From positions 1 through 64,000 of the forward strand of contig NZ_AP014836.1 of assembly GCF_002356115.1 (NCBI RefSeq): DNA of 64,000 nt. The letters are read 5' to 3'. A program made the translations under genes and the position numbers. This DNA comes from Candidatus Nitrosoglobus terrae. Lineage in GTDB: Bacteria > Pseudomonadota > Gammaproteobacteria > Nitrosococcales > Nitrosococcaceae. The notes under the pieces are model-generated. The model saw only the letters and a program-made list of their open reading frames with translations, made no database searches and was not told the DNA's origin. This document shows, piece after piece, positions 97 through 2,813 of this stretch; the stretch's first letter is position 1, and each line of letters begins with the position of its first letter.

Positions 97-1437
97 GTGT
101 CATCCCCGCTTTGGGAACACTGCCTTAATCATTTAGAAGGAGAACTCAGTCCTCAAGAGTTCAATACTTACATTCGCCCCTTACAAGCAATGCAGCGAGA
201 TTCTACTTTACAGCTTTATGCGCCTAATCAGTTTGTGATTGATTGGGTACAAAATTGCGTTAAAAATCGTATTAATGCCCTCTTATTTTATTATAGTAAT
301 GGCTGCATAAATAAGGCAATCTTTGATGTTGGTTCTTGTAATCCTCAGCCACAAGTCCATGTCCAAGCACCGAGTGAGAACCTAGATCCCTCCACTAAGT
401 GTATTAATTGGATATCTGATTCTCAGCTTAATAAATATTATACTTTTGATACTTTTATCGAGGGTAAATCAAATCAATTACCTCGTGCTGCCTCTTACCA
501 AACTGCTGAAAACCCTGGAAATGCTTATAACCCTTTATTCATTTACGGAGGAGTGGGTCTTGGTAAAACCCATCTAATGCATGCTGTAGGTAATCATATT
601 CGAATGCGTAGCCCTTATACTAAAGTTGCTTATCTGCATTCAGAGCAGTTTGTTGCTGGGATGATAAAAGCCTTGCAGCTAAATGCGATCAACGAATTTA
701 AAGCTCGTTATCGATCAGTGGATGTTCTATTGATTGATGATATTCAGTTTCTTGCCGGAAAAGAGCGCTCTCAGGAAGAATTTTTTTATACTTTCAATAC
801 ATTATTTGATGGCCAGCACCAAATTATCTTAACCTGTGATCGATTTCCAAAAGAAGTTATTGGATTAGAGGAAAGATTAAAATCTCGTTTTGGCTGGGGG
901 CTAACTGTTGCTGTTGAACCACCAGAGCTGGAAACAAGGATCGCTATCCTAATAAGTAAAGCTAATCTTGAGAATATTTCCCTATCAGATGATGTCGCCC
1001 TTTTCCTTGGGCGACTCATTCGCTCTAATGTTCGAGAGTTAGAAGGGGCATTACGACGAGTAATTGCTTACTCTCGATTTACTAATCGCGCGATTACGAT
1101 AGAGCTTACTCGTGAAGCATTAAAAGATTTATTAGCATTGCAGGAAAAACTAATTACAATTGAAAATATTAAAAGAACAGTTGCGGAATATTATAAAATT
1201 CGAATTTCTGATCTATCATCAAAATGGCGTTCTCGCGCTGTTGCACGACCAAGACAAATAGCTATGGCGCTTTCCAAGGAGTTAACTAATCATAGTTTAA
1301 TTGAAATCGGAAACTTCTTTGGTGGACGCGATCATACAACAGTTTTACATGCTTGTCGCAAAATAAATGAGCTAACAAGCATTGACCCGCGAGTAGCTGA
1401 AGATTATGAGAATTTATTAAAAAAACTATCTACGTAA
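97..1437 (+). CDS. dnaA: Chromosomal replication initiator protein DnaA
   Basis: Initiates chromosome replication by binding DnaA boxes at oriC, melting the origin and loading DnaB. The 446 residues show the full family layout: N-terminal domain I (about 1-85), a short linker, the AAA+ domain with Walker A GGVGLGKT (151-158) and Walker B LLIDDI (211-216), and the C-terminal DNA-binding signature [15 protein letters not shown] (about 409-423). The start is GTG at 97, preceded by AAGGAG at 81-86. It is followed by a DnaA-box cluster and dnaN, the usual origin context. Boxes lie just downstream; none that I recognise lie in the 96 bases upstream. Confidence 0.98.
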
Positions 1438-1438
1438 T

Positions 1439-1552
1439 TGTGGATAACTCAGTGGATAACCCATGTATAACTATGTTAATAACTTTATACTTCAATTATA
1501 TCAACATTTTTTCCACAGGGTTATACATGGGTTATCCACTGAGTTATCCACA
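1439..1552. repeat. Perfect 33-bp inverted repeat made of DnaA boxes
   Basis: The left arm (1439-1471) and right arm (1520-1552) are exact reverse complements over 33 bases, separated by 48 bases. Each arm has an outer TTATCCACA box, an inner TTATCCACT box and a weaker TTATACATG-like site, so boxes on the two arms face each other symmetrically. A single TTTTCCACA near-box lies inside the spacer at 1509-1517. The repeat starts two bases after the dnaA stop, so it could also act as a hairpin at the end of the dnaA transcript. Confidence 0.9.
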
Positions 1553-1610
1553 TGTTAAGATATTGATTTTTAATTAAATTTAGTCAAACCAATGTATTTT
1601 TAGCCCTTAT

Positions 1611-1709: not shown

Positions 1710-2813
1710 ATGTGGTTTTCTATCGAAAGAGAAGAGATCGTTAAACATCTAACAACCGTCTGTGGGGTAGTAGAACGACGCCATGTCCTGCCTATTCTCT
1801 TTAATGTTCTTTTAATAATTGAAGATTCACAACTTTCCCTAACAACTACAGATCTTGAAGTTGAAATAAGAACTATATTTAAAGTTCAGCAAATAGAAGC
1901 TGGAAGAATAACGGTTGCTGCAAGAAAATTCCTAGATATTTGTCGTATACTACCTTCTCGATCTACACTAGAAGTGCAACATAAAAATGGGCAGCTCCAT
2001 ATTCGAGCAGAACATAGTAAATTTACGCTTAGTACTCTTCCAGCAAAAGATTTTCCTAATACAAATAATTTTGATAAAGTTACAGAAATTGAGTTAACTC
2101 AAATTGAGCTAAAAAGCTTACTACAGAAAACTGTTTTCTGTATGGCTCATCAAGACGTTCGTTATTATCTTAACGGTTTACTAATAGAACTAGAGAAAGA
2201 AGAACTACATGCTGTAGCTACAGATGGACATCGACTTGCCATTGCCTCATTAAAAAAAAGACTGTTACCTGATGAAGGAAAAATTCAGGCCATTATACCT
2301 CGAAAGGCAGTACTAGAGTTAACGCGCTTATTGGAAGAATCAGATGATTTAGTACGGATTACGCTTGGAAATAGCCAAATAAGAGCTGAATTCCATGGAC
2401 TATCCTTCTTTACTAAATTGATAGATGGCCAGTTTCCTGATCATAGACGGGTAATACCGATAGGCTGCGAGAAACAACTTATTATTAATCGAGAAGCACT
2501 CAAACAAGGGTTAGCTCGGGTAAATATTCTTACAAATGATAAACACCATGGGGTACGCTTATATTTTTCAAATTCAACACTACAAGCCATAGTGACTAAT
2601 TTAGAGCAAGAATCTGCTGAAGAAAAAATAGAAACTAATTACGAAGGAAATAGCCTTGAGATTGGTTTTAATAATTCCTATCTTATTGAGCTACTTAACA
2701 TTATTGCTTCTGAACAAGTAAAACTAGAGTTTACAGATGCTAGTAGTGGTTGCCTCATTACCCCTCTAAATGGTGATACTAGTAAATATGTCATTATGCC
2801 TATGAGATTATAG
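1710..2813 (+). CDS. dnaN: DNA polymerase III subunit beta (sliding clamp)
   Basis: Forms the ring-shaped processivity clamp that tethers DNA polymerase III to DNA. The 367-residue length matches the family (E. coli 366). Recognisable segments include the LPILFNVLL stretch near the N terminus, the ATDGHRLA motif around residue 172, and the C-terminal YVIMPMRL tail that ends the third clamp domain. It lies 272 bases after dnaA, with the candidate origin between them. No clear Shine-Dalgarno precedes the ATG, so a leaderless or weakly initiated message is possible. Confidence 0.97.
   Translation: MWFSIEREEIVKHLTTVCGVVERRHVLPILFNVLLIIEDSQLSLTTTDLEVEIRTIFKVQQIEAGRITVAARKFLDICRILPSRSTLEVQHKNGQLHIRAEHSKFTLSTLPAKDFPNTNNFDKVTEIELTQIELKSLLQKTVFCMAHQDVRYYLNGLLIELEKEELHAVATDGHRLAIASLKKRLLPDEGKIQAIIPRKAVLELTRLLEESDDLVRITLGNSQIRAEFHGLSFFTKLIDGQFPDHRRVIPIGCEKQLIINREALKQGLARVNILTNDKHHGVRLYFSNSTLQAIVTNLEQESAEEKIETNYEGNSLEIGFNNSYLIELLNIIASEQVKLEFTDASSGCLITPLNGDTSKYVIMPMRL

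Follow-up and report, generated by a model that had tools for sequence, protein, structure and literature searches.

Opposed DnaA Boxes in the dnaA-dnaN Gap

In the window, which is the whole 64-kb stretch of Candidatus Nitrosoglobus terrae DNA analyzed here, dnaA (97-1437) is followed by a gap of 272 bp, dnaN (1710-2813) and gyrB. One base separates the dnaA stop codon from an inverted repeat with arms TGTGGATAACTCAGTGGATAACCCATGTATAAC (1439-1471) and GTTATACATGGGTTATCCACTGAGTTATCCACA (1520-1552), which are exact reverse complements across 33 bp and are separated by a spacer of 48 bp. The runner-up among perfect inverted repeats of the window with arms less than 300 nt apart was 14 bp, and approximately 1e-12 perfect 33-bp inverted repeats are expected per 64 kb from base composition alone. 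The perfect repeat that a first-pass annotation had reported after dnaA is thus real, with exact arms and far above chance. The features of the locus are:

97-1437, plus strand: dnaA, 446 aa, GTG start (open reading frame; PF00308 and PF08299 matches over the cut-off)
1439-1471, no strand: left arm of the perfect 33-bp inverted repeat (exact match)
1439-1447, minus strand: DnaA box 1 of the left array, TTATCCACA (same place, +2 after the dnaA stop, in G001, G003, G004, and G005)
1451-1459, minus strand: DnaA box 2 of the left array, TTATCCACT (position conserved in relatives)
1462-1470, minus strand: DnaA box 3 of the left array, weak, TTATACATG (position conserved as TTATACACA/TTATACATA in relatives)
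1474-1482, minus strand: DnaA box 4 of the left array, degenerate, TTATTAACA (two mismatches; relatives are near consensus at the matching place)
1509-1517, plus strand: DnaA box 4 of the right array, TTTTCCACA (one mismatch)
1520-1552, no strand: right arm of the perfect 33-bp inverted repeat (exact match)
1521-1529, plus strand: DnaA box 3 of the right array, weak, TTATACATG (position conserved in relatives)
1532-1540, plus strand: DnaA box 2 of the right array, TTATCCACT (sequence match)
1544-1552, plus strand: DnaA box 1 of the right array, TTATCCACA (sequence match)
1556-1568, minus strand: IHF-type site AATCAATATCTTA, exact match to the consensus WATCAANNNNTTR, directly after the outer plus box
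1609-1652, no strand: candidate unwinding element, an imperfect palindrome of 86% A+T (proposed from composition and repeats)
1710-2813, plus strand: dnaN, 367 aa (open reading frame; 56-68% identity to DnaN of relatives)

Boxes were scored as TTATCCACA-like 9-mers. Four minus-strand boxes were found on the left (starts 1439, 1451, 1462, and 1474) and four plus-strand boxes on the right (starts 1509, 1521, 1532, and 1544), spaced 12-11-12 on either side. The two good boxes per arm described earlier are present as stated, TTATCCACA at 1439 (minus) and 1544 (plus) and TTATCCACT at 1451 (minus) and 1532 (plus), and the two exact matches to TTATCCACA in the whole window are both located in the repeat arms. 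The third, weak box of each arm, the fourth box on each side, the IHF consensus site and the CTA repeats were not part of the first-pass annotation. The innermost pair of boxes, TTATTAACA and TTTTCCACA, lies outside the perfect repeat and is unlike between the two sides.

Elsewhere, an intergenic cluster of three exact DnaA boxes in plus/plus/minus orientation was observed at L004:1505-1540 (G000:C1 near 902,710-902,745), with the sequence TTATCCACA GAG TTATCCACA ATTTT TGTGGATAA. The head-to-head box pair of this cluster resembles the DARS type of DnaA-reactivating site. A small second contig encodes a Rep_3-type plasmid initiator (G000:C2:1101-1550).

Position of the Probable Replication Origin

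GC skew was determined in twenty 20-kb samples spaced along the 2.01-Mb contig, i.e., with a resolution of approximately 20 kb. The skew was positive from dnaA to approximately 1.1 Mb and negative from approximately 1.2 Mb to the contig end (-0.123 there), on which rpmH, located upstream of dnaA, sits; the G+C content of the genome was about 42% in 20-kb samples. The DnaA boxes cluster beyond chance and are found at or near the sign change of the skew, to approximately 20 kb, in agreement with the origin region suggested by the first-pass annotation. Because of this sign change and the position in the dnaA-dnaN gap, the repeat region is almost certainly oriC.

By composition, a putative AT-rich unwinding element is present beside the boxes, with 86-88% A+T at 1609-1709. 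In this candidate element, an alternating AT run is flanked by CTACTACTACTA at 1612-1623 and by TAGTAATAGTA at 1641-1651. Trinucleotide-like repeats were also observed on both sides of the AT-rich region in G003 and G004. No DnaA box with two or fewer mismatches was found at 1553-1612; the best candidate there for a lone plus-strand box beside the unwinding region matched at 6/9 positions, which is chance level.

From this arrangement we infer that DnaA and IHF would bind at the array and bring about unwinding and helicase loading. A short spacer separates the two rows of boxes, which are opposed and helically phased. As in E. coli, DnaA would assemble head to tail into one oligomer per row, with the two oligomers opposite each other. 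The right flank of the array would be bent by IHF, and DnaA close to the AT-rich region would make contact with the unwound strand, allowing two helicases to be loaded.

Comparison with Known Origins

With the positions of R1 and IHF in E. coli oriC as reference, the window resembles the E. coli origin in having opposed box halves and an IHF site on the side of the unwinding element. Two arrays of opposite orientation are present, and a consensus match for IHF lies between the array and the unwinding element. An R1-like strong box next to the unwinding element was not found, although such a box is present in Nitrosococcus-like relatives, and the window therefore matches the E. coli type only in part. 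It further differs from E. coli oriC in its perfect mirror arms and its location between dnaA and dnaN. Whereas E. coli oriC has low-affinity sites between few strong boxes, the window has near-consensus boxes every 11-12 bp.

In E. coli oriC, the boxes of one half point one way and those of the other half the opposite way, and two DnaA oligomers face each other (PMC10380432). The earlier claim that boxes are as a rule scattered over origins in mixed orientation is supported neither by these opposed halves (PMC10380432) nor by the many gammaproteobacterial dnaA-dnaN gaps in which we found the same minus-then-plus order. The suggestion of face-to-face DnaA filaments was borne out insofar as the two rows oppose each other, but such an arrangement is already textbook knowledge for E. 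coli.

The unit of DnaA box and DnaA-trio (BUS) has a limit of 16 nt between box and repeats (PMC8287927). The window resembles it in having CTACTACTACTA beside an AT-rich stretch, downstream of plus-strand boxes. The unit calls for three or more NAN triplets no farther than 16 nt from a DnaA box; here, no recognizable box lies that near to the CTA repeats at 1612-1623. Since the nearest box is approximately 60 nt away from these repeats, the locus does not represent a DnaA-trio unit (PMC8287927).

Conservation of the Layout in Relatives

All four Nitrosococcus-like relatives with dnaA (G001, G003, G004, and G005) have a two-sided array in this position. In these genomes it starts two bases past the stop codon, with minus boxes at +2, +14, +25, and +36 and a matching plus row, and the spacing is mirrored as 12-11-11/11-11-12, compared to 12-11-12 on both sides in the window. 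The layout is kept in G003 and G005 even though the longest perfect repeat within their box arrays is only 9-10 bp. A lone box on the plus strand (+148 or +159) is also present in the Nitrosococcus-like relatives and has no counterpart in the window. At the matching place, 5/5 genomes carry a minus-strand IHF-type site that departs from the consensus at one position at most; in the relatives it is located between the plus row and the lone box, with a chance probability of 4-11% per genome.

Outgroup gaps were obtained from a contig search with DnaN alignment, the matches of which included no Nitrosococcaceae (near relatives were possibly excluded). Place, polarity and IHF-type site are as in the window for both Nitrosococcus-like and Chromatiales-type dnaA-dnaN origins, and the IHF-type site was found at gap position 104-115 in many outgroups and Chromatiales-type gaps. 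The minus-then-plus order recurs in the latter with sparser boxes, often at -12, +58, and +145. A phasing like that of the window was seen in Nitrosococcus-like genomes, while most Nitrosococcus-like and Chromatiales-type genomes differ from the window in keeping a lone plus box near +145 and in having non-identical arms. In Methylophaga-type genomes, which belong to the same taxonomic order as the window, the gap is mostly very short and contains no boxes. A plasmid collection searched with DnaA gave distant records only.

Facing tandem box pairs were found in 8 of the 369 genomes of the class surveyed, each from a different family; the reversed control pattern did not occur (0/369). In the seven of these genomes other than that of the window, the array was located between dnaA and dnaN in four and beside dnaN in one; neither gene was seen in the small locus of the remaining two. 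The dnaA-dnaN gap of G297, from a distant family of the same class, contains 5 + 5 consensus boxes and a perfect mirror of 44 bp (L162:1498-1621). This origin shares with the window the perfect mirror, its location and the outer spacing of 12, but has more and stronger boxes and keeps the lone plus box. Relatives of G297 have weaker, unequal arrays. The survey together with G297 therefore indicates that the polarity is old and that long perfect mirrors arise by lineage.

Two further loci were noted. A wider version of the layout is present in the 698-bp dnaA-dnaN gap of a Candidatus Contendobacter odensis MAG (L146), with five exact boxes on the minus strand (306-372), then five on the plus strand (399-495), and a perfect repeat of 16 bp. 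At G407:C17:18443-19734 the dnaA frame of a 97% complete genome is broken into two pieces by one internal TGA, which could be a sequence error.

Origin of the Arm Identity

Over the three boxes and their linkers the arms of the window are identical to each other at 32/32 positions, whereas each arm matches the same side of the relatives at 23-27/32 only. Two states common to both arms were found in none of the eight Nitrosococcus arms. G003 and G004, on the other hand, have side-specific differences in common, and thus their arms have drifted apart. If both arms were drawn independently from the family profile (eight related arms), the probability of identity would be approximately 2e-5.

We read the identity within the genome, together with the shared derived states, as copying between the arms in the lineage of the window. 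The gene conversion previously invoked for the exact identity is supported to this extent by the lineage-specific changes that both arms share. Judged from these comparisons, homogenization of one arm by the other over a conserved layout is the probable source of the identity. Template switching or gene conversion between the inverted copies would be the route of copying, and one event or many may have led to the identity seen in the single genome of the genus that was compared. Taken as a whole, the feature is very probably the DnaA-binding half of oriC, with an inherited layout and with arms made identical by later, lineage-specific homogenization. What is unusual is the near-identity of the two rows; the layout itself is not new.

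Perfect symmetry could itself be under selection, if equal arrays led to a double DnaA complex with symmetric halves that function in the same way. In line with this, the spacing is mirrored and the outer two boxes of each side are 12 bp apart in the window, the four relatives and G297; the two independent long perfect mirrors of the window and G297 fit as well. We nevertheless consider it unlikely, as G003 and G005 have the same layout with far shorter repeats, the relatives of G297 have weak and unequal arms, and the linker bases between the 9-mer boxes are mirrored as well, which binding to the boxes alone would not need. More speculative still is that some lineages keep a truly symmetric origin, the arms of which are held identical by repeated copying and change together with DnaA, and that such origins arose at least twice (in this genus and in G297). 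No description of a mirror-symmetric oriC was found in the literature library searched.

The start of the repeat one base past the dnaA stop codon, and a strand that folds far better than shuffled sequences (z -10, DNA parameters), would fit a transcription terminator or RNA hairpin that mainly serves to close the dnaA message. A terminator scan of 1380-1760 found no terminator-like site and no T run, a hairpin loop would be 48 nt rather than the short loop of a GC-rich stem followed by a T run, and nothing scored above the Rfam gathering score; we take weak sub-gathering scores to sRNA and microRNA families to reflect the hairpin. The stem is also not conserved although the boxes are: in two relatives with an intact box layout, the longest perfect repeat of the array is only 9-10 bp. 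This function is therefore very unlikely, and the proposal that the repeat ends the dnaA transcript is unsupported. The same variation, from 9 to 33 bp of perfect arm within the family, makes a supercoiling-driven cruciform even less credible as the working element: perfect arms of 33 bp allow the strand to fold, but a 48-bp spacer slows cruciform extrusion, which is accordingly expected to be slow here. The cruciform suggested earlier is not needed to explain the repeat. Least probable of all is an assembly or sequencing artifact, in favor of which nothing was found; the innermost boxes differ from side to side, and the layout agrees with four other genomes. Homogenization of the arms over an inherited array of DnaA boxes remains the preferred reading.

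A Published Genome of the Sister Genus without dnaA

The genome of 'Ca. Nitrosacidococcus urinae' I8, from the sister genus (G002; 1,848,551 bp), was published as complete and circular (PMC9574496). The contig runs from a point 267 bp ahead of dnaN to the start codon of rpmH. Searches for the PF00308 and PF08299 domains found neither DnaA nor Hda in this genome. The 267 bp upstream of dnaN contain no box array and aligned with the gap of the window no better than shuffled sequences did; the joint absence of DnaA, Hda and the array fits the reading of the array as the DnaA-binding half of oriC. At the hda locus, the gene orders recN-nadK-recJ and DUF2066-purM-purN are kept, while hda and a pgsA-like neighbor are absent. 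Since hda is missing from within a conserved gene order, the absence is more than a gap at the contig end. G002 is possibly a free-living gammaproteobacterium without DnaA; according to a 2020 paper, no free-living species lacking dnaA had been reported outside cyanobacteria (PMC7198777). GC skew in G002 is weak and irregular, and no Rep_3-type plasmid initiators were found. Loss of RNase HI as the cause of DnaA-free replication was rejected, as rnhA is present. The G002 loci concerned are L040, L061, L080, and L182 (G002:C1).

Altogether, the locus in the window is ordinary in kind, an oriC, with a mirror that is unusually exact and lineage-specific. For the questions whether opposed DnaA arrays have to be equal, and how inverted arrays of binding sites remain alike, the layout offers a compact natural test. 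Within the family, an elaborate, probably homogenized DnaA origin in one genus contrasts with the published circular genome of a sister genus, which lacks dnaA, hda and the array.
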